Shown here one piece after another: positions 27,362-36,896 of a DNA stretch of 48,221 nt. Source of the DNA: Planctomycetaceae bacterium (GTDB lineage: Bacteria > Planctomycetota > Planctomycetia > Pirellulales > Pirellulaceae). The first letter of the stretch is position 1. Each line of letters starts with the position of its first letter. A model generated the notes under the pieces. That model was given only the letters and a program-made list of their open reading frames with translations. It was not told the DNA's origin and ran no database searches. Made by a program: the position numbers and the translations under genes. Location: positions 25,245 to 73,465 of the forward strand of contig PAQH01000006.1 in the NCBI GenBank assembly GCA_002709225.1. Direction: 5' to 3'.

Positions 27362-28159
27362 ATGATTAAGAAAGGAATTACTGGAGCTGCAGTGGTTGTG
27401 CTGTTGTTGGGATTTCTTTACGGACGTGACGCGATCAGCCTGGTAGCTACCACCTACGGAGAGGTTCGTGACGCTGCCAGCGATTTGATTTCGGTTGAAA
27501 CTCGCATCAAGCAGGCTCGCGGGGCTATCAAGGACCTGGAAGGCCCGATTGAAGAAGCGATGGAAACGATCGCTCGAGAAGAAGTGGCCGTTGCCAAGCT
27601 GGAACGGCAGTTGGCGAAGACAGAGGGCCAGTTGTCAAAAGATCGCAATTATCTGGAGACTTTGCGCGATGCATTGACGCAGCAGAGCGGGAGTATTGTG
27701 CTGGCTGGAAAAAGCTACGAGTCTAAGGAAGTCAAGGAGTCGCTGGCTCGCGAGTTTAAGCACTTCAAAAGCTCGGAGAGCAAGCTGGACCAGCTCCAGA
27801 AAGTACGTCAGGCCCGCGCGGCACGATTGCGTGCGGCACGCGATAAGTTAGACGCCATGAAAGTGGCGCGACGGCAACTGGTTGTTGATGTGGAAAATCT
27901 GGAAGCACGCATGAAGATGATCGAAGTTGCAGAGACCACAAGTGAGTTGAGTCTCGACGACAGCGAGCTTTCCAGAACTCGCGACCTGGTCGAGGAAATT
28001 AGTACTCGATTGGACGTTGCCGAAGAATTGCTGGATACGCGTAGCCACTACGTCAATCGAATTCCTCTGGAAGATGACAATGAGGATGACATTGTTGACC
28101 AGGTGACTACGTACTTCGGTTCCGCTCCAGTGGAAAATCGCATTGCCCAGAACGACTAG
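27362..28159 (+). CDS. exported or membrane-anchored coiled-coil protein
   Basis: A 265-residue protein. Residues 1-25 ('IKKGITGAAVVVLLLGFLYGRDAI') form a membrane anchor or signal. Residues 45-220 are almost entirely charged heptads (Glu, Lys, Arg, Leu, Ala), a long coiled coil with a break near residue 115 ('QQSGSIVLAGKSYESKEV'). The C-terminal 30 residues are acidic. The plan (short N-terminal anchor, 'EVRDAASDLISVETRIKQAR', then coiled coil) matches a protein I have seen repeatedly in planctomycete genomes without a known function. GGAGG lies 9 bp before ATG 27362. It forms its own unit, bounded by the inverted repeat upstream and a strong terminator downstream. A link to the preceding coiled-coil gene is inferred from similar architecture. 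Confidence 0.78.
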   Translation: MIKKGITGAAVVVLLLGFLYGRDAISLVATTYGEVRDAASDLISVETRIKQARGAIKDLEGPIEEAMETIAREEVAVAKLERQLAKTEGQLSKDRNYLETLRDALTQQSGSIVLAGKSYESKEVKESLAREFKHFKSSESKLDQLQKVRQARAARLRAARDKLDAMKVARRQLVVDVENLEARMKMIEVAETTSELSLDDSELSRTRDLVEEISTRLDVAEELLDTRSHYVNRIPLEDDNEDDIVDQVTTYFGSAPVENRIAQND

Positions 28160-28175: not shown

Positions 28176-28207
28176 GGGCCCAGGATTAAATCCTGGGCCC
28201 CTTTTTT
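28176..28207 (+). terminator. strong intrinsic terminator
   Basis: GGGCCCAGGAT pairs with ATCCTGGGCCC (11 bp, 3-nt loop) and CTTTTTT follows. It lies 16 bp past the stop of the coiled-coil gene. The A-run on the left side (28171-28175) could make it work in both directions. The gap to the FHA gene (28208-28457) shows nothing else. Confidence 0.93.
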
Positions 28208-28457: not shown

Positions 28458-29054
28458 GTGTTGGAAGAACCCCGCAAACGCATGCTGTTGTGGGTCGATG
28501 CTGTAGGAGGGTTCTTGGTATGTCTTTCTCCGCAGGCGATTCTAGGTCAGGCATTGCCCGCATGCGATGTTGACATTCCGCTTTCAGCAGATGTCTCCCG
28601 TCGTCATGCAATGATCCGTAGGCATGCCGACGAATATGTGATCGAACCCTGGCACTCCGTATTATTGCGAGGGCGAGAAGTGGAACAGCCGGAGCCCCTG
28701 CGCGATGGTGATCGGATTACACTCGGAAAGTCGATGCAGATTGAATTTACACAGCCTCATGCATTGAGCGCTACGGCACGACTCATCTTCAGTAGTCGGC
28801 ACAGCACGCAACCTGCCGCCGATGGGGTCATGTTGATGAGCGATTCGTTGATCCTGGGGCCTCAGGGCCACAACCATATCGTTTGTCGTGAGTGGACTCG
28901 GGATGTCATTCTGTTTCGACGGAGTGATCAACTTTGGTGCCGAAGTCCCGGTGGCATCGAAGTCGATGGTGCGAGTTTTCAGGACGAAGCTCCAATCGGT
29001 CCAAATTCGCGCATTGAAGGTAATGATTTTTCAGTGGCTCTAGAGACGTTGTGA
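28458..29054 (+). CDS. double FHA-like protein
   Basis: A 198-residue soluble protein with an FHA fold in the N-terminal part (about residues 8-95) and a second FHA-like segment (about 105-198, with 'SLILGPQGHNHIV' and 'VDGASFQDEAPIGPNSRI'). The first copy keeps the Ser-x-x-His signature (S47-R-R-H50), but the arginine of the usual GR pair reads Gln (GQ) and the late asparagine reads Trp-His. Phosphothreonine binding may therefore be weak or altered. The start is GTG 28458, preceded by AGGGGG; the reading begins close to the first strand as in other FHA proteins. The next gene is a Ser/Thr kinase, the usual partner of FHA readers. The gap between them is 210 bp and contains a hairpin. Confidence 0.78.
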   Translation: MLEEPRKRMLLWVDAVGGFLVCLSPQAILGQALPACDVDIPLSADVSRRHAMIRRHADEYVIEPWHSVLLRGREVEQPEPLRDGDRITLGKSMQIEFTQPHALSATARLIFSSRHSTQPAADGVMLMSDSLILGPQGHNHIVCREWTRDVILFRRSDQLWCRSPGGIEVDGASFQDEAPIGPNSRIEGNDFSVALETL

Positions 29055-29140
29055 GCCTTTAGGGGCTCTGTGAACTGTGGTGGAAAATGGTGTGCCGGCG
29101 AGGTCTGTGCAACAGCCGGGTGAGCGGGGCGACGAATTGA

Positions 29141-29169
29141 TGTCAGCTTTGATGAGTCAAAGCTGGACA
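29141..29169. promoter_or_regulatory. strong hairpin between FHA and kinase genes
   Basis: CAGCTTTGA-TGAG-TCAAAGCTG is a perfect 9-bp stem with a tetraloop; TGT/ACA extend it to 12 pairs around one bulged G. It lies about 95 bp before the kinase start and has no T-run. It could attenuate or stabilise the mRNA, or bind a protein. Confidence 0.45.
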
Positions 29170-29264
29170 AGCAGTTGGAGCAGCCGCTAATCTGGGGACC
29201 AGATTTGATTATCGTAAATGATGTACGTTTTGTTGGATGATTTCACCCGCCGGGAGGCGGTTTC

Positions 29265-31199
29265 ATGAAGTTCGCTTATGCCAGCGGAACATGCCCTCTT
29301 GAGGGCTTTACGATTAAGCGAGGCGTCGGAAGCGGCGGCTTTGGGGAAGTCTATTTTGCCACTACTGACGCGGGTAAAGAAGTTGCTCTCAAGCGAGTGC
29401 ACCACAATTCAGATGTTGAGATGCGTGGAGCGACGCAGTGTCTGAATTTCAAACATCCGAACCTGGTCGCACTGTTTGATATCAAATACGACGATGACGA
29501 CGCGGGTTGGATCGTCATGGAATTCGTATCAGGTGAGAGTCTCCGGGACGTGCTGGATCGCTATCCCGAGGGAATGCCGCATGAAGAAATTCGTCGCTGG
29601 TTTACGGCAATTGCCGAAGCGGTTGGCTATCTCCACCAGCACGGAATTGTCCATCGTGATTTGAAGCCTGGAAACGTGTTTGACGATGGTGGTATCGTCA
29701 AGGTTGGTGATTACGGATTGTCGAAGTTCATTTCGGGGAGTCGTCGGCACGACCAAACGGAGAGCGTAGGCACTTTTCACTACATGGCACCCGAGATCGG
29801 CAAGGGTGTCTACGGGAAAGAAGTCGATATTTATGCCTTGGGGGTCATCTTGTACGAGATGCTTACTGGGCGTGTTCCCTTTGAAGGGGAATCCAGTCAA
29901 GAGATCATCATGAAGCATCTGACGGATCTGCCTGAGGTAAGCGGTTTGCCAGACGGCTACCGTGAAGTAGTCGCACAGGCGCTAAACAAGGATCCAAACG
30001 AACGTTTTACGGAAGCGGAGGAGATGCACCGGGGACTCGGGAGCGTCTTGAAATGGGATAACCACGCTAAGCTGCCTCCGGTCTTGCCCAAGCCGCATCG
30101 CCACCACCTTGGCACAGTTGTGATTAATGATGAATCGGCGCCGCAGCCGGAAGTGTTGCAGGCGACAGTCGTAGAGCATGGCGTTGTAACGGGCGACGCT
30201 AGGGGCAGTTCTCCCGAACCGATAGCACAGGCTGTGCGTGCAGGCGGTAGCAGGTTCCGTGACTGGTGGCACAGCACGCATAGTGTTGTGCAACTCAGCG
30301 TGCTGGCAGTCGCCGTACTGCTGCTGGTTCTGCAAACGCGGTGGTTGTTATTGAGTGGCGTTTTACTTGGAATGGTGTATCTGATTTATTTTGTCATTCG
30401 CAATACGGTATCTGCGTTAAGCGGGACGCGAAGTGGTGGACAGGGTTCCGCCACTACCCGCCCGGTAACTTCCCAAAACCCGCAAAGACGGCGCCGACAA
30501 TCGCGTGTTCCCTGGCAACAGGTAGCGCGCACCGATTTGCGTGACAAGGGCTTCGCGGAACGGTTTACAGAATTATCAGGTGCCCTGCTGCTTTCGTCGA
30601 TTGTGGTGGGTGTACTAAGTCTCGTTATGTTGATTGCCGCCGGACAGCCGATTGATGGATCGATCGATATGTTCGCCCGATTTACCTGGTTGGCGACTGT
30701 CAGCATGGCCGGGAGTTGGGTTGTGCTGATGAGTTGCAAGTTCTGGGAAGGTGATGCAGGCGAGCCGTTGTCGAGGCGGTTTGTCCTATTGGGCGTTGGC
30801 TTGCTCTGGGGGTTTGCCGGTTATTTTGGAGGAGATTTTCTGTCGGTGACACTAGATCCTACGGTGGGGGACCAGCTCTCATCGGATCCGATGTTGCGGA
30901 ATGTGTATCCGACGAGCCTCTTCGAGGAAAATGGCGGCCCTTCGCTGGCGTCGTATCTCGTGTATTTCGGTGGTTTGCTTTCCATCATTCGATGGTGGAA
31001 ACAAGCGGATCCGTTGCGGGCGACTCGCTTTAGTCTGTTTACGACCGGAGGCACCGCGGTAGGCGCGCTTTTCTTGCCGCTGCCGTTGCCATGGGGCCTG
31101 ATGATTGCGGTGACAACTTCGGCGGCTGTTCAATTGTCGGCTCCCTGGATTTCTGGGCCACAGCGACTTGAATTGAAGCGCAAGGCGATGCAGGTTTGA
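29265..31199 (+). CDS. polytopic membrane Ser/Thr protein kinase
   Basis: A 644-residue kinase of the bacterial Hanks type. The catalytic domain covers about residues 12-262: Gly-rich loop GVGSGGFGEV (20-29), Lys43 (ALKRV), HRDLKPGN (130-137), DYG at 149-151 in place of DFG, and activation-loop Thr170 before MAPE. All key residues are present, so it should be active. A linker with a Pro/His-rich part follows. The rest is unusual: seven or eight predicted membrane helices (about 341-378, 436-459, 473-490, 505-522, 553-570 and 585-620) with a basic cytoplasmic loop around 405-425. Most bacterial kinases have one helix. GGAGG lies 8 bp before ATG 29265. The genes around encode an FHA protein, a membrane protein and an ECF sigma factor, so a signalling cascade ending in transcription is likely. 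Confidence 0.93.
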   Translation: MKFAYASGTCPLEGFTIKRGVGSGGFGEVYFATTDAGKEVALKRVHHNSDVEMRGATQCLNFKHPNLVALFDIKYDDDDAGWIVMEFVSGESLRDVLDRYPEGMPHEEIRRWFTAIAEAVGYLHQHGIVHRDLKPGNVFDDGGIVKVGDYGLSKFISGSRRHDQTESVGTFHYMAPEIGKGVYGKEVDIYALGVILYEMLTGRVPFEGESSQEIIMKHLTDLPEVSGLPDGYREVVAQALNKDPNERFTEAEEMHRGLGSVLKWDNHAKLPPVLPKPHRHHLGTVVINDESAPQPEVLQATVVEHGVVTGDARGSSPEPIAQAVRAGGSRFRDWWHSTHSVVQLSVLAVAVLLLVLQTRWLLLSGVLLGMVYLIYFVIRNTVSALSGTRSGGQGSATTRPVTSQNPQRRRRQSRVPWQQVARTDLRDKGFAERFTELSGALLLSSIVVGVLSLVMLIAAGQPIDGSIDMFARFTWLATVSMAGSWVVLMSCKFWEGDAGEPLSRRFVLLGVGLLWGFAGYFGGDFLSVTLDPTVGDQLSSDPMLRNVYPTSLFEENGGPSLASYLVYFGGLLSIIRWWKQADPLRATRFSLFTTGGTAVGALFLPLPLPWGLMIAVTTSAAVQLSAPWISGPQRLELKRKAMQV

Positions 31200-31313
31200 C
31201 AGGAAGCCGAGACCGGCGGGGTTTCAATGTGGGCAGGTGGTTGCGACGAAGACATATGATACCGTGGTGAATACAACGACTGCGGTGGGGAAATTGTGAA
31301 CGAAAGGAGCCAC

Positions 31314-32234
31314 ATGTTTGTGTTCTATACGCTGACGATGACACTGGCTCTACTGCCATTGTGTTTGTGGTTTGTAGTTCGCTTCTGTTTGACGCATCAT
31401 CCGCGTGTGTTCGCACTGGCGAAATATTGTGTTGCCCTGGGTTTGGTCTTCGTGGGTTTAATTCACTTGCCCGGATACGCGCAGCAGCCGAGTCAGGTTG
31501 GGGCAGAAACGGGTGTGTCCCCGCCACCAGCCAACGAGTCGGGGCGAATTGTAATCGCTCATCCTGAGAATACAGCTGACGCCAGTGTTGTTGTGGCCGA
31601 TCTGGCGGGACCGGAACACATCGACGAGCCCATGGAAGGGTTGAGATCAGATCTGGCTGAGCGGATTCAGATTGTCAATGAAGAGACGCGGCCGAAATGG
31701 GTTGCTACTCCCCGTCGTGTGCTGGGCGGACCGATCCACCTTATTACGGTATCTTCTGGTATGGAACGCGTCCCCGATGATTGCAGTCGTAGTCTGGACG
31801 ACAAGCTCAGCCAAGAAGTGCGTGATTACATTGCCAAGTATTTGATAAAAGACCCGCGTGCGGCACGAGTACCGGACTTGGAATGGGGAGTTAAGTACAT
31901 TCGCCAAAAGTTGGTACGTAAGCCAGTCTACGAGGAGCAGATTACAGGAATGCAATACGGACCACTTTATGAGCGTCATGCCTTGTTGGAATTGGATGCC
32001 GAGTTTCGCCAGCAGGCCCGCTTGCAATGGTCCCAGTACGTCAAGAAACGCCGGGTTTATGGGACGGGGCTGGCATCCAGCGGTCTGCTTGGCTTGTTGA
32101 TGCTGGTGTTTGGATATCTCAAACTCGATCAGGTCACACGCAGGGAGCATTCGACCAGCTTGCAGCTCCTGGCGGCAGGGGCGATACTGGCTCTGACAGC
32201 AAGTCTGTGGCTGCTGAAAGGCTGGCTGCCGTGA
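31314..32234 (+). CDS. four-helix membrane protein of unknown function
   Basis: A protein of about 306 residues. Two hydrophobic segments lie at the N-terminus ('YTLTMTLALLPLCLWFVVRF' and 'CVALGLVFVGLIHLPGYAQ', the second perhaps a signal-like end). A polar domain of about 180 residues follows, and two membrane helices lie at the C-terminus ('LASSGLLGLLMLVFGYL' and 'LLAAGAILALTASLWLL'). The central domain carries 'IVIAHPENTADASVVVADLAG' and 'DDCSRSLDDKLSQEVRDYIAKYL'. Its orientation suggests it faces the periplasm. The start is ATG 31314 because AAAGGAG stands 4 bp before it; GTG 31296 lies upstream of that site. It sits 114 bp after the kinase and 152 bp before the sigma factor, so it may be the sensor or target of the kinase. 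No recognised family. Confidence 0.75.
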   Translation: MFVFYTLTMTLALLPLCLWFVVRFCLTHHPRVFALAKYCVALGLVFVGLIHLPGYAQQPSQVGAETGVSPPPANESGRIVIAHPENTADASVVVADLAGPEHIDEPMEGLRSDLAERIQIVNEETRPKWVATPRRVLGGPIHLITVSSGMERVPDDCSRSLDDKLSQEVRDYIAKYLIKDPRAARVPDLEWGVKYIRQKLVRKPVYEEQITGMQYGPLYERHALLELDAEFRQQARLQWSQYVKKRRVYGTGLASSGLLGLLMLVFGYLKLDQVTRREHSTSLQLLAAGAILALTASLWLLKGWLP

Positions 32235-32386
32235 TCCACCGGGGCCCACGGATTTCGTGAAGTGCGTTTGGCGGGTCTTTGCCCACAGCGGTTGCGTTTT
32301 CCCTGTACGGAAAGCCAGCTGCCGCACGAGGCCACGAGAAGCTGTTCCGATTCGTCGGCCCCAAAGCCTCGTGCTAGGTCAACTCC

Positions 32387-33019
32387 ATGTCCAGTCCGTC
32401 CGAAACAGACCAGTTGCTCGTGGAACGTATCCGCACTGGCGACGGTGACGCCTGGGAGGACCTGATTTCACGTTACGAGGGCCGTTTGCTTGCGTTTGTG
32501 GAAAGTCGTGTCGGGCGGCGCACCGCCAGTGAAGATGTTGTGCAGGAAGCCTTTATCGGATTTCTCAATAGCCTGCCAAATTTTGATGGTCGGAGGTCTC
32601 TGGAAAGCTACCTCTTTTCTATTTGTGCATACAAGTTGACGGACCATTTGCGACGCGAAGGTCGCCGTCCGACAATCCCGCTCGCGGTATCCAATGAGTC
32701 GAGTGGCGAATGGCAGATTCCTGGTGCCGCCCGACCTGCGAGTAGTATTGTTCGGAGTGCCGAACGACGCGATTTAGAGGGGCGCGCGGTCGGGGATGCG
32801 TTGCGAGATCAGGTGCAGCATTGGCAGGCACAGGGGAATTGGATCAAGCTGCGCTGCATTGAGTTGTTGTTTGTGCGTGGTTGGGCGAACAAGCGGGTGG
32901 CCAACGCACTTGATTTGTCCGAGCAGCAAGTTGCGAATTTCAAACATGACTTCCTTGCGCGGACAAGTAGTTTGATTCGCAAGCAAGGTCTATCCCCAGA
33001 AGTGTTTCCTGAATTGTGA
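32387..33019 (+). CDS. ECF-type RNA polymerase sigma factor
   Basis: A 210-residue sigma factor with region 2 at about 10-92 ('AWEDLISRYEGRLLAFVESR', 'EDVVQEAFIGFLNSL' with the core-binding helix, 'SYLFSICAYKLTDHLRREGRR') and region 4 at about 140-202, ending in the helix-turn-helix 'RVANALDLSEQQVANFKHDF'. Regions 1 and 3 are missing, as in ECF factors. The linker between the domains is long and contains an Ala/Pro/Ser-rich part. Planctomycete ECF factors are known to be genetically tied to Ser/Thr kinases; here a kinase lies 1.2 kb upstream. The next gene, 58 bp downstream, encodes a small Cys/His protein likely to be its anti-sigma factor. Its target promoters cannot be read from this window. 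Confidence 0.93.
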   Translation: MSSPSETDQLLVERIRTGDGDAWEDLISRYEGRLLAFVESRVGRRTASEDVVQEAFIGFLNSLPNFDGRRSLESYLFSICAYKLTDHLRREGRRPTIPLAVSNESSGEWQIPGAARPASSIVRSAERRDLEGRAVGDALRDQVQHWQAQGNWIKLRCIELLFVRGWANKRVANALDLSEQQVANFKHDFLARTSSLIRKQGLSPEVFPEL

Positions 33020-33077
33020 GGCAGACTGGCCACGGAAGTGTCTCGGAGTGCTCAGTTGTTACAGAGGTTGAGTCGGC

Positions 33078-33500
33078 ATGTCATGTGATTTTTCACAGAG
33101 TGAAATAGAGGCCTATTTGGACGAAGCGTTACCTGCCAGTGAAATGGCATCGATCGAACGTGCGTTGCGGGCAGATTTGAGTCTATTGCAAGAGGTGAAG
33201 CGGGTTAATGGAAGACGCGATGCTGGCCTGCATACCATTGGTGAGATCTGGCGAAGGCAGCGGGCCAGTTGCGCGACACGTGAACAGTGGGGCAGTTATT
33301 TGCTGGGAGTCTTGGCGGCAGAGCACGTGGCTTATCTGGACTTCCATCTCGACCAAATTGGTTGTGCTTTTTGTCGGGCAAATCTAGAGGACCTAAAACA
33401 GCAACAATTGGAGTTGCCCGACGCCACGAAAACCCGGCGCAGTAGATACTTCCAATCCAGTGCCGGTTATTTGCGGCATGACCCCGATAGCAGTGTGTAA
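33078..33500 (+). CDS. small soluble anti-sigma-like protein with Cys/His motif
   Basis: A 140-residue cytoplasmic protein without membrane segments. The N-terminus 'SQSEIEAYLDEALPASEMASIERALRAD' resembles the opening helices of anti-sigma factors of the zinc type ('YLDGELP...ARFEAHL'). Potential zinc ligands are Cys65, His90, Cys96 and Cys99 (H-x5-C-x2-C, not the classical H-x3-C-x2-C). 'LDEALPASE' and 'CRANLEDL' are typical of a small protein repeatedly found next to planctomycete ECF genes. Anti-sigma activity is inferred from position and composition. AGAGG lies about 10 bp before ATG 33078. The next gene starts 8 bp after its stop, so both belong to one operon. Confidence 0.7.
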   Translation: MSCDFSQSEIEAYLDEALPASEMASIERALRADLSLLQEVKRVNGRRDAGLHTIGEIWRRQRASCATREQWGSYLLGVLAAEHVAYLDFHLDQIGCAFCRANLEDLKQQQLELPDATKTRRSRYFQSSAGYLRHDPDSSV

Positions 33501-33508
33501 ATCGTCTC

Positions 33509-34099
33509 ATGAATAATCCAGTATCATTAACCCGTAGCCCCGCATTGATGGATCGCCAGGATACCGGTTTGTTGGTGGTTGACGTGCAGGAGAAGTTGAT
33601 TGACCTCATACATGGTCACCAGACCCTCGTCTGGAATATCAGCCGCTTGTTGCGTGGCGCGCGACAACTGCAAATCCCGGTTTTTGCCACGGAGCAATAT
33701 CCGCAAGGGCTTGGCGCTACGGTACCGGAGTTGGCGCAACACTTGGGGGGGACGCCGGCAAAATTGGCCTTTAGTTGTGTGGGTTGCCCGGAGCTCTTTG
33801 AGTCCTTGCGTGCAGCGGAAGTTTTCAAGATTCTCGTGGTGGGAATTGAAGCCCATGTTTGCATCCAACAGACAGTATTGGATTTACTGGCCAACGGATT
33901 TCAGGTTTACGTAGCGGTTGACGCGGTTAGTTCACGCAGGCAGGTGGATCAGCAAGTTGCATTACAACGAATGGAGTCTGCTGGAGCTGTTGTAACCACC
34001 ACTGAAGCGGCGCTGTTTGAGTGGTGCCAGGTTGCCGGCACACCCGAGTTCAAGGGAATTAGCCGGCTCGTACGTGAAGCAGATCCAGGGGCTTGCTGA
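33509..34099 (+). CDS. isochorismatase-family cysteine hydrolase
   Basis: A 196-residue alpha/beta hydrolase of the isochorismatase/nicotinamidase type. The catalytic triad is complete: Asp25 (VVDVQEKL), Lys85 (PAKLAFSC) and Cys118 (GIEAHVCIQQT). The segment 'FATEQYPQGLG' and the terminal 'AVSSRRQVDQQVAL' fit the YcaC/hydrolase branch more than nicotinamidases, which would show zinc-binding histidines after the Asp. The substrate is unknown. It is only 8 bp behind the anti-sigma-like gene, so it is co-transcribed with the sigma factor, which is odd for a metabolic enzyme. Start ATG 33509. A hairpin overlaps its stop codon. Confidence 0.9.
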   Translation: MNNPVSLTRSPALMDRQDTGLLVVDVQEKLIDLIHGHQTLVWNISRLLRGARQLQIPVFATEQYPQGLGATVPELAQHLGGTPAKLAFSCVGCPELFESLRAAEVFKILVVGIEAHVCIQQTVLDLLANGFQVYVAVDAVSSRRQVDQQVALQRMESAGAVVTTTEAALFEWCQVAGTPEFKGISRLVREADPGAC

Positions 34100-34742: not shown

Positions 34743-35717
34743 TCAACGCTGTTGAAGAACCTTACGCTGCGCAGCTTGTGGCGTTTGTTGGCGGTTTTGA
34801 ATGCCGGTATCTGGTTCACTGTCAACGAGCCGTGGTGTAATCCTCAAGGCGCGAAAATCGGTTAGATCGATCACCGACGCACCGTCCAGTGAACCATGTC
34901 TTTCCGCGTAGTCGACTAGGCGTTGGACCTTGTCAGGCGCTGGAGATTCTGATTGTCGTTCTTTGTTAGGGGGGTTGCCCCAGACGATACGCGTTCCTTG
35001 GCGTGTGACAAGTTCATAGACCACGGCTGTGGTAAAGACCACTTCGGCAGATGTTGACTGAGGTTCAATCGCAAACAGATCGAGATCTTTCCAGACAGCC
35101 TCCAAGGCCAATGCAATACGCGCCGCTGCGGCCACTCTTTCATCGCCATAAGGTGTGCCGACACCGCCCGCTGGTTGAGGTGAGACACCGCGGACATGTA
35201 GGTATTCACGTGTTTGTAGTTCAGAGAATTCATTTGGTGGTAACAGGTATCCGTCGGTATCGACCGGCCAGAAACCATCTGGATCAGCCTTGACCATAAT
35301 CGTTGGTTGCCGGTACAGCAGTTGTACAATCAGCCGGCGCGACGATTGTTTGTCGACGCGTTCCACGCGTCGTACCCAGCGATGCAAGGCAAAGGCACGA
35401 TCGACCTTCAGTGCTGTTGCGGCGTCCAGCAATGAGAGGCTGGCAAGCTTGGCATCTCGAACGACTTCTTCTTTCACGTTAGATTGAATCCACGTTGGCT
35501 GAGAAGGCACTTCGATCTTGTCGGCAGACAGTGTGAAGCGAGAGTCGCTGATGACTTCATCGCCCCAACGCATCCATGCCCAGGTGAACGTTGCCCCGGC
35601 AACCGCCAGGAGCAGACAGATGCTGCCCGCGGAACTGGTGGCGAGGCGCAGTAGCGTGGATACTTGTGTGCTTAGTCGAGCAAATCGATTGTCTCGGCTG
35701 GGTCGGGTTGCGCTCAT
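34743..35717 (-). CDS. FtsQ/DivIB-like cell division protein
   Basis: A protein of about 324 residues with one N-terminal membrane helix ('ICLLLAVAGATFTWAW' after a basic cytoplasmic stretch). A periplasmic part starts with the POTRA-like segment 'SADKIEVPSQPTWIQSNV' and continues with the typical FtsQ region 'WVRRVERVDKQSSRRLIVQLLYRQPTIMVKA' and 'GFWPVDTDGYLLPP'. Those strands match the 'V-x-R-x-P-x-x-L-x-I-x-V-x-E-R-x-P-x-A' and 'LVD-x-x-G-x-x-F' motifs of FtsQ. The C-terminal 40 residues are Gln/Arg-rich. ATG 35717 was chosen because it precedes the cytoplasmic basic tail; an open frame reaches 35807. It directly follows murB on the same strand, as in the dcw cluster. No ftsA or ftsZ follows. 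FtsQ links early and late divisome parts in other bacteria. Confidence 0.72.
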   Translation of the reverse strand: MSATRPSRDNRFARLSTQVSTLLRLATSSAGSICLLLAVAGATFTWAWMRWGDEVISDSRFTLSADKIEVPSQPTWIQSNVKEEVVRDAKLASLSLLDAATALKVDRAFALHRWVRRVERVDKQSSRRLIVQLLYRQPTIMVKADPDGFWPVDTDGYLLPPNEFSELQTREYLHVRGVSPQPAGGVGTPYGDERVAAAARIALALEAVWKDLDLFAIEPQSTSAEVVFTTAVVYELVTRQGTRIVWGNPPNKERQSESPAPDKVQRLVDYAERHGSLDGASVIDLTDFRALRITPRLVDSEPDTGIQNRQQTPQAAQRKVLQQR

Positions 35718-35825
35718 TACGTTTCTTCTCGAGGATCCACCACGAGTTTTTCTCTCGGGGCAGAACGCCAGTGAGCAGATTGCTGCTGCCATGGGTGCCA
35801 GTAGCACGCAGGGCAGGAGACTCGT

Positions 35826-36704
35826 TTACCAAATCTCGAGTTCTACTTCCAGCTCAACCCCTAGCCGATCCAGTGTTTGCGTTTGCATGCGCTCGATCAA
35901 ACGCAGCAAATCGGAGCTGCTGGAGGTGGCGGAAGACACGACGTAATTCGCATTCTCATCGCTGACTTGTGCGTCACCAACGATAGTGCCTTTGAGACCG
36001 GCCTGTTCTAGCAGTGCTGCCGCGTTGGCACCTGGGGGATTGCGAAACACGCAGCCCGTATTAAATCCGCCACGCGGCAGGTTCGCTTTTTTTACGATCC
36101 AGAGCGTCTGCAGACGTTTCGTGAGTTCGGCGGGATCTTCTTGCTCAAGTGAGAAGGTTGCCGTGAGGATAGCGAGTTCGTCCAAACTACTTTGGCGATA
36201 AGCAAATCGCAGATCGGTTTTCCTGCGTGTGTGGATTTCACCGGTCCGCGTCAGCACTTGGGCCTCGATAGTGCGGCGCCCGATATCACCTCCTGCTGTG
36301 CCAGCGTTTCCGTGTAATGCACCGCCGACAGTTCCGGGAATTCCGACCAAAGGCTCGAGCCCAGCGAGTCCCTCGCGTACCGCTGTCGATACGACATGTC
36401 CCAGTTTAGCTCCACCGCCGACCACCAGCTCCTCTCCGCGGGTTCGAATTTCGGAGAATTGTGGAGCGGATAGGTGAATTACCAGACCTTCAACACCTTG
36501 ATCGCGAACTAATACGTTCGATCCGCCCCCCAGAAGGCGGAATGGCATGTCCTGCTCGCGGCAGCGGTTGATCAGCGTCACGAGCTCGTCGGTGGAAGTG
36601 GGTTCTGCGAAATACTCGGCGGTTCCACCGACGCGCAGGGCCGTGTATGGCGCTAATGGTTCCTGAGCGCGTACGACGTGTTCTAGACCCCGAAAAATCT
36701 CCAT
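35826..36704 (-). CDS. murB: UDP-N-acetylenolpyruvoylglucosamine reductase
   Basis: Predicted to reduce UDP-GlcNAc-enolpyruvate to UDP-MurNAc with FAD and NADPH, a cytoplasmic step of peptidoglycan precursor synthesis. The protein has 292 residues, as in the type II (short) MurB. FAD-binding motifs are 'LAPYTALRVGGTAEYFAEP', 'LLGGGSNVLV', 'GGGAKLGHVV' and 'PLVGIPGTVGGALHGNAG'. The substrate side has 'FAYRQSSL', 'GFNTGCVFRNPPG' and 'LLEQAGLKG'. Cysteine occupies the place of the catalytic serine of E. coli MurB (GS-x-F-x-NP reads GC-V-F-R-NP). The C-terminal 'DENANYVV' closes the domain. ATG 36704 has AGGA about 8 bp upstream; a longer frame reaches 36773. The ftsQ-like gene follows after 108 bp. 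Confidence 0.95.
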   Translation of the reverse strand: MEIFRGLEHVVRAQEPLAPYTALRVGGTAEYFAEPTSTDELVTLINRCREQDMPFRLLGGGSNVLVRDQGVEGLVIHLSAPQFSEIRTRGEELVVGGGAKLGHVVSTAVREGLAGLEPLVGIPGTVGGALHGNAGTAGGDIGRRTIEAQVLTRTGEIHTRRKTDLRFAYRQSSLDELAILTATFSLEQEDPAELTKRLQTLWIVKKANLPRGGFNTGCVFRNPPGANAAALLEQAGLKGTIVGDAQVSDENANYVVSSATSSSSDLLRLIERMQTQTLDRLGVELEVELEIW

Positions 36705-36896
36705 AGCGTCGTTCCTGAGTCGCAGGTTGCCCGGGCGAGGTGCGATCTTAGGCGCCGTTTCGCGGAGTGTCAATGTGACGCGGTCCCCGGCTGCGAATTC
36801 GAGGTGGTGTCAGGCCGCTCATTGCCTCGCAGTTTACGACGCGGCAAAATAGGTGGACGTGTCAAACGTGAAGTCCTTCTTGGGGAGAGCAGTATC

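Follow-up and report, generated by a model that had tools for sequence, protein, structure and literature searches.

Relationship of the locus to described kinase-linked sigma factors

Among the described systems closest to the one considered here, the extracytoplasmic function (ECF) sigma factors of group ECF43 are presented, in the sections of the reports covered, as having lost the charges of the DAED motif in region 2.2 and as gaining charge by phosphorylation (PMC8999054, PMC13147305). In the Mycobacterium tuberculosis SigH-RshA and SigE-RseA pairs, according to the portion of the review consulted, phosphorylation of a soluble zinc anti-sigma factor by PknB frees the ECF sigma factor (PMC8999054). 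Kinases and ECF sigma factors abound in planctomycetes, and little is known of how they are wired. Neighborhoods of kinase and ECF sigma genes are reportedly known in this phylum from work by Jogler in 2012, Wiegand in 2020 and Casas-Pastor in 2021. Here we analyzed a 48,221-nucleotide stretch of a Planctomycetaceae bacterium (contig PAQH01000006.1, positions 25,245 to 73,465; hereafter the window), which encodes a coiled-coil protein (cc), an FHA-like protein, a Ser/Thr kinase, a membrane protein (MEM), an ECF sigma factor (SIG) and a soluble anti-sigma-like protein (ASF). Judged by the comparison of sequences, these six genes, in this order, are a conserved module, real and old, that occurs in nearly all genomes of its family. 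We propose, with roughly even chances of being correct, that the kinase, predicted to sit in the membrane, phosphorylates the soluble anti-sigma-like protein on its conserved tail and thereby frees the ECF sigma factor. The proposal is based on the gene order and its recurrence, the near-universal and mostly single copies, the existence of fused paralogues, the absence of the system from one family and the Ser/Thr pair of the tail.

As in the ECF43 pairs V. parahaemolyticus EcfP-PknT and X. citri EcfK-PknS, in so far as the covered sections describe them, a Hanks-type kinase gene lies beside the ECF sigma gene. Unlike ECF43 sigma factors, which are recognized by the loss of the DAED charges with a phospho-Thr in place, SIG retains both acidic residues of region 2.2 (in 82 fragments, E49 is kept in 78 and D50 in all), and its unit includes an anti-sigma-like protein that is fused to the sigma factor in paralogues. 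The mode of action proposed for the window module is that of SigH-RshA and SigE-RseA under PknB. M. tuberculosis pknB lies distant from those pairs, whereas the window module has a dedicated kinase gene beside the SIG and ASF genes, as well as cc, FHA-like and MEM partners. Furthermore, ASF presents H-x5-C-x2-C rather than the spacing of zinc anti-sigma (ZAS) domains, H-x3-C-x2-C preceded by an upstream ligand, and 7 of 78 locus fragments are without its zinc site. No description of the unit was found in the covered parts of PMC8103513, PMC8999054, PMC13147305, PMC2754498, PMC8567305, PMC7406223 and PMC11032199, a body of literature that excludes the main planctomycete ECF group studies.

Organization of the module in the window

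All six members lie on the plus strand. The block opens with cc (27362-28159; 265 aa, with an N-terminal hydrophobic segment), which an initial annotation made from the sequence alone had left outside the boundaries of the unit. The six plus-strand ORFs that it did report, from the FHA-like gene to an isochorismatase-type hydrolase gene, were found where it had placed them and in the families it had guessed (Pfam/NCBIfam). A strong terminator-like hairpin (28176-28200) separates cc from the FHA gene, and in the window genome the two are probably transcribed separately. The FHA-like protein (28458-29054) had been read as a double FHA protein; its first domain (residues 29-90, 28542-28727) is recognized by Pfam (6e-11), whereas the second, degenerate half drew no Pfam call.

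The Hanks-type Ser/Thr kinase (29265-31199; Pkinase 7e-52, residues 16-252) comprises a catalytic domain (29310-30020) and a C-terminal membrane part (about 30261-31196) that is predicted from hydropathy alone. MEM (31314-32234) matched no Pfam family; its start follows protein database record P0121 (306 aa), and the ORF may begin at 31296. Its hydropathy profile displays two N-terminal and two C-terminal segments, in agreement with the four membrane helices first ascribed to it, around a predicted non-membrane middle part. SIG (32387-33019) matches Sigma70_r2 (2.6e-14) and NCBIfam sigma70-ECF (1e-15, above cut-off) and, as a short protein with sigma2 and sigma4 only, is an ECF (group 4) sigma factor; its sigma2-sigma4 linker (32732-32767) holds an invariant Ser119 (32741-32743). 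The Cys/His protein ASF (33078-33500; 140 aa) scored 4e-4 with zf-HC2, barely below the Pfam cut-off, and 2e-4 with an NCBIfam anti-sigma model, far below the cut-off. The intergenic gaps from the FHA gene to the hydrolase gene measure 210, 96, 152, 58 and 8 nt, the last two being exactly those reported at first for SIG-ASF and ASF-isochorismatase.

Conservation across the family

To place the locus in its family (f1), 149 genomes from 68 genera were surveyed. The SIG orthologue was detected in 143 of them, the C-terminal membrane part of the kinase in 138 and full-length ASF in 137, with one further genome holding the fused form only; the three are mostly single-copy, and at least one of them is missing in 18 genomes. 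Of the 136 genomes that have both kinase and SIG, 85 show the two adjacent, on one strand and no more than 4 kb apart (largest gap 2396 nt), and the best FHA match is the immediate upstream neighbor of the kinase in 117 of the 127 genomes where both were typed. Kinase, SIG and ASF are all clustered in 49 of the 149 genomes (ASF on the same strand in 48), and a further 31 present linked kinase and SIG genes with ASF elsewhere. SIG and ASF lie within 3 kb of each other in 50 genomes, on the same strand in 49. Among 59 family loci picked for kinase-SIG linkage, whose member counts are thus pre-selected, cc was found in 48, the FHA gene in 52, MEM between kinase and SIG in 51 and ASF in 34; the 20 of these with longer flanks show ASF in 19.

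The initial annotation had suspected one conserved unit and had named, as the sign of accidental adjacency, sigma/anti-sigma pairs standing without kinase and FHA. Such pairs are mainly not what related genomes present: in the family genomes with ASF at most 300 nt downstream of SIG, the kinase lies just upstream in 34/34. The gene order repeats across many genomes, beyond what chance would give, and the suspected unit held for kinase, FHA-like protein, MEM, SIG and ASF and failed for the isochorismatase.

Distribution in the class and the phylum

In a class-wide survey of 297 genomes, some SIG match was found in all 297, and the orthologue was scored absent when the best E-value exceeded 1e-25, a cut set post hoc once a gap in the values had been noticed. 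ASF was detected in 267 genomes. Both proteins occur in 260 genomes and neither in 26, compared to 4 with SIG alone and 7 with ASF alone (Fisher 6.7e-27, uncorrected for kinship); 15 of the joint absences concern genomes at least 93% complete, spread over five families. Matches to the kinase part occur in 202 of the 297 genomes, and a weak kinase match is still present in 4 of the 26 genomes lacking SIG and ASF. In one family of the same order (f9; nine genomes of 3.0-4.5 Mb), the SIG orthologue, ASF and the kinase part went undetected in 9/9.

Outside f1, among the matches listed, kinase and SIG lie within 4 kb of each other in 41 of 56 typed genomes, from 13 families, and all three genes are together in 29, from 11 families; these counts take no account of strand and are not rates. 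Eight loci of other families were examined. Four of them (L227, L228, L230, L231) reproduce the full cc-FHA-kinase-MEM-SIG-ASF order, L225 does so without a cc match and L229 without cc and ASF matches, and L226 holds ASF alone. In the phylum sample, 43 of 246 genomes presented ASF matches, and the 27 genomes outside the class match mainly its C-terminal half, mostly within longer reading frames.

These data also bear on the possibility that SIG/ASF on the one hand and the kinase genes on the other form independent systems, neighbors by chance. A number of observations weigh against a strict operon or a single system. Kinase, SIG and ASF are all apart in 51 of the 149 family genomes; one family genome (G034), an exception among the 50 whose SIG and ASF genes are at most 3 kb apart, lacks a kinase match; and at L224, the eighth of the loci from other families, the SIG-ASF pair stands without a kinase in 16 kb, the kinase part being found about 54 kb away. 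SIG, moreover, has its own candidate promoter. The 51 of 136 genomes in which kinase and SIG are not adjacent comprise 13 with the genes far apart on one contig and 38 with the genes on separate contigs, in some cases perhaps through breaks in the assembly, and in six split genomes the cc-FHA-kinase block is intact in 6/6, with a MEM match in 5. Set against chance neighborhood are the kinase-SIG linkage across 13 families outside f1, the repetition of the whole order at paralogous loci and the joint absence of SIG, ASF and kinase part in f9, and we regard this explanation, already disfavored, as very improbable.

A fused paralogue of SIG and ASF

Several genomes carry an additional, diverged locus where a single ORF encodes SIG together with the C-terminal part of ASF. 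Because SIG and ASF are fused in these paralogous loci, ASF would be expected to work on this kind of sigma factor; the fusion constitutes strong evidence for such a role, the strongest that the sequences provide. Five of the seven fused loci (L216-L222) display cc, an FHA-like ORF, a kinase, a membrane ORF in the position of MEM and the fusion, the FHA match of L218 being weak and the resemblance to MEM weak or positional only; L221 is truncated at the kinase, and no kinase was found in the 4.1 kb of sequence upstream of the fusion at L222.

A protein search with one fusion returned 294 relatives, the best 120 of which include members of Phycisphaeraceae, Tepidisphaeraceae and Sedimentisphaerales and preserve the H..C..C pattern in 119 cases and the Ser/Thr pair in 118. 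Like ECF52 and its relatives from Actinobacteria, as outlined in the part of the review covered (PMC8999054), these planctomycete fusions join a sigma factor to a regulatory zinc domain. Unlike ECF52, they lack a hydrophobic segment (none of the best 120 of 294 reaches 1.6 over 19 residues), and in 5/7 loci they end a cc-FHA-kinase-membrane gene block. The structural neighbor (VIA) list of the fusion model covers the sigma part only. As a natural fusion, this protein offers an object for structural work.

Zinc site, fold and tail of ASF

The predicted structure of ASF is all-helical. Its predicted zinc site (C65-x24-H90-x5-C96-x2-C99; 33270-33374, plus strand) departs from the ZAS arrangement and is well preserved among the best 120 homologues (C65 in 119; H90, C96 and C99 in 120). 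In 7 of the 78 ASF locus fragments, C65, H90 and C99 are lost together, and zinc or redox sensing is disfavored as a universal signal. The C-terminal tail, RR-x-(K/R)-YFQSSAGYL (33435-33473), is conserved, and its Ser127-Ser128 (33456-33461), a candidate phospho-acceptor pair, corresponds to Ser/Thr pairs in 77 of the 78 fragments, six of which are fused forms. Because the zinc site is lost in some ASFs and the Ser/Thr pair is kept in all but one, the tail pair is the best candidate for the switch.

Comparison of the ASF model with a structure library by Foldseek yielded no significant match, and its profile matched the sequences of solved structures at chance level only. Set beside class I anti-sigma domains (RsiW, ChrR), whose sigma-binding fold is helical, ASF differs in its extra C-terminal domain and conserved tail and in the lack of a significant sequence match among solved structures. 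The nature of ASF bears on a reading in which it is a partner that SIG needs (a chaperone, an RNA polymerase adaptor or a degradation adaptor) rather than an inhibitor, with the kinase tuning the partnership. The fused proteins would suit a lasting partnership no less than a brake built into the sigma factor, and SIG and ASF are missing jointly (26 genomes) rather than ASF alone being missing (4 genomes). We nonetheless consider an obligate partner improbable, given that the top two structural neighbors of the ASF model are anti-sigma factors and that its CHCC residues (25 residues, then H-x5-C-x2-C) are spaced nearly as in zinc anti-sigma domains.

The zinc-less ASFs (L134, L143, L144, L145, L146, L149, L151) are encoded away from their sigma factor and keep the tail. 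Stand-alone ASF genes occur in L123, L125, L127 and L135 beside a gene that we take, from its sequence and without a family call, to be ketoacyl-synthase-like.

Residue conservation in the kinase, the FHA-like protein and SIG

The best kinase of each locus preserves the catalytic Lys, the DYG Asp and APE in 84/84 cases and the HRD Asp in 83/84; with Lys, HRD, a DFG-type Asp and APE in place, the protein is a Hanks-type Ser/Thr kinase. The FHA-like protein gives a different picture. The G-R Arg of the third strand binds phosphothreonine in FHA domains, and at this place the 77 sequences have Gln in 57, Gly in 8 and Arg in only 4; Ser, Arg and His of the S-R-x-H motif are found in 53, 64 and 57, respectively. 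The protein thus mostly lacks the combination of third-strand G-R and S-R-x-H that characterizes phosphothreonine-binding FHA domains. The initial idea that FHA acts as the phospho-reader of the system is accordingly doubtful, and a canonical reader is disfavored.

Conserved residues in SIG raise the possibility that the kinase phosphorylates Ser119/Ser120 of the linker, altering the grip of SIG on RNA polymerase or on ASF in the manner of the EcfK linker phosphosites, with ASF as a second brake. Ser119 is present in 82/82 SIG fragments, among which six are fused forms, and the next residue is Ser or Thr in 76; furthermore, the covered sections of PMC13147305 describe how the neighboring kinase phosphorylates Xanthomonas EcfK at T104, T106, S108 and S110 of the same linker. 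The linker Ser is equally conserved at loci whose sigma gene lies away from the kinase gene (the type B and type C settings below) and, unlike in ECF43, the sigma2.2 motif retains its two acidic residues. We regard phosphorylation of the SIG linker as unlikely, though with an appreciable share of the probability, and the same two observations disfavor an ECF43-type activation of SIG.

A predicted promoter inside MEM

A sigma70-like promoter is predicted on the plus strand at the 3' end of MEM (32160-32188), with TTGCAG at 32160-32165, a 17-nt spacer and GATACT at 32183-32188. In a search for autoregulatory ECF promoters, dyads were counted upstream of SIG, FHA, cc and stand-alone ASF genes. 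By far the strongest signal was obtained upstream of SIG (14/19 sequences; shuffled maximum 4) and falls within the last MEM codons; weaker dyads were seen for stand-alone ASF (7/22) and cc (9/15), with a shuffled maximum of 5 each, in sequences that may be kin.

We then examined codon usage at loci chosen by amino-acid pattern only, which is present in 38 of 68. The Leu codon is TTG in 38/38 (background 26%), the Ile codon eight codons later is ATA in 37/37 (background 7%), and the exact TTGCAG-N17-GATACT occurs in 20 of the 38 loci. The in-frame pattern is found in 39 of 68 MEM 3' ends, compared to 0/278, 0/207 and 0/1005 control windows. The motif is missing from the other 29 MEM 3' ends, and among seven loci of other families only L227 shows the promoter spacing. 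The site is left unlisted by a consensus promoter scan because TTGCAG matches 3/6 positions. On this codon evidence, the motif is likely a sigma70-like promoter driving SIG. With SIG likely made from its own promoter in MEM, its activity would depend on control at the protein level more than on how the kinase genes are transcribed.

A candidate relay from kinase to sigma factor

In the proposed relay, ASF would bind SIG and keep it off RNA polymerase. MEM and the membrane part of the kinase may sense an envelope signal, upon which the activated kinase would phosphorylate the ASF tail (Ser127/Ser128); ASF would then let go, and SIG would transcribe its regulon. A scaffolding role close to the kinase may fall to the cc and FHA-like proteins, which are probably not canonical readers of phosphothreonine. 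Found in nearly every sampled family genome and in most of the class, mostly as a single copy, the module is likely a core regulator. The more general claim of a dedicated, near-universal Planctomycetia membrane-kinase/anti-sigma/sigma relay, combining a switch in the Ser/Thr tail of the anti-sigma protein instead of its zinc site, a fused form beyond the class, a promoter in MEM codons and a core regulator of the phylum without described counterpart, is put forward tentatively, its chances being somewhat below even. The module is small (one kinase, one sigma factor, one inhibitor-like protein and two predicted phosphosites), and it makes the question of kinase control over transcription in planctomycetes bench-testable.

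Alternative settings of the sigma gene

A SIG scan of genome contigs kept 80 loci, 23 of which (L007-L029, 50-72% identity) are close relatives from planctomycetes. Eleven of these 23 (type A) present the kinase-MEM-SIG block, preceded by cc and FHA wherever the contig extends far enough; ASF follows SIG in nine of them and is not adjacent in L017 and L024. The cultured planctomycetes Bythopirellula polymerisocia and Adhaeretor mobilis (L019 and L026) carry the unit. In seven others, from one lineage (type B; L009-L012, L014-L016), a different FHA protein is encoded just upstream of the sigma factor, and no kinase or ASF match was found within the stretches examined; six of the seven lie near what we take from their sequences to be trigger-factor and ClpP-like genes. 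Two loci, from Stieleria and Roseiconus (type C; L025 8058-10004, L027 8176-9966), have a gene for a cyclic-nucleotide-binding patatin-like phospholipase directly before the sigma gene, and L013, L028 and L029 fall outside these types. In a tree of the 23 sigma factors, with 11 of 20 inner branches poorly supported, each setting with at least two rows lies on one side of a branch.

In R. baltica, the covered part of PMC2754498 names the FHA protein RB1789 as a regulator candidate and reports induction of the ECF sigma factor RB1790 by high salinity; we take this pair as a lead only and do not equate it with the window genes.

Genes behind the module

The isochorismatase-type hydrolase gene (33509-34099, plus strand; family match 1e-31), counted in the initial annotation as part of the unit, was rejected as a module member. 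It adjoins ASF in 2 of the 20 loci with longer flanks, both from the genus of the window, and was found in none of the 23 named loci and none of 39 further, shorter stretches; three of the 20 (L158, L159, L161) have less than 1 kb of sequence behind ASF. The hydrolase gene is a genus-level neighbor that may be co-transcribed with ASF within the genus, outside the old module. Its two counterparts behind ASF, in L156 and L157, share 82% and 68% identity with it. Further behind the unit lie two convergent genes on the minus strand, one without a Pfam match (34743-35807) and a MurB gene (35826-36773).
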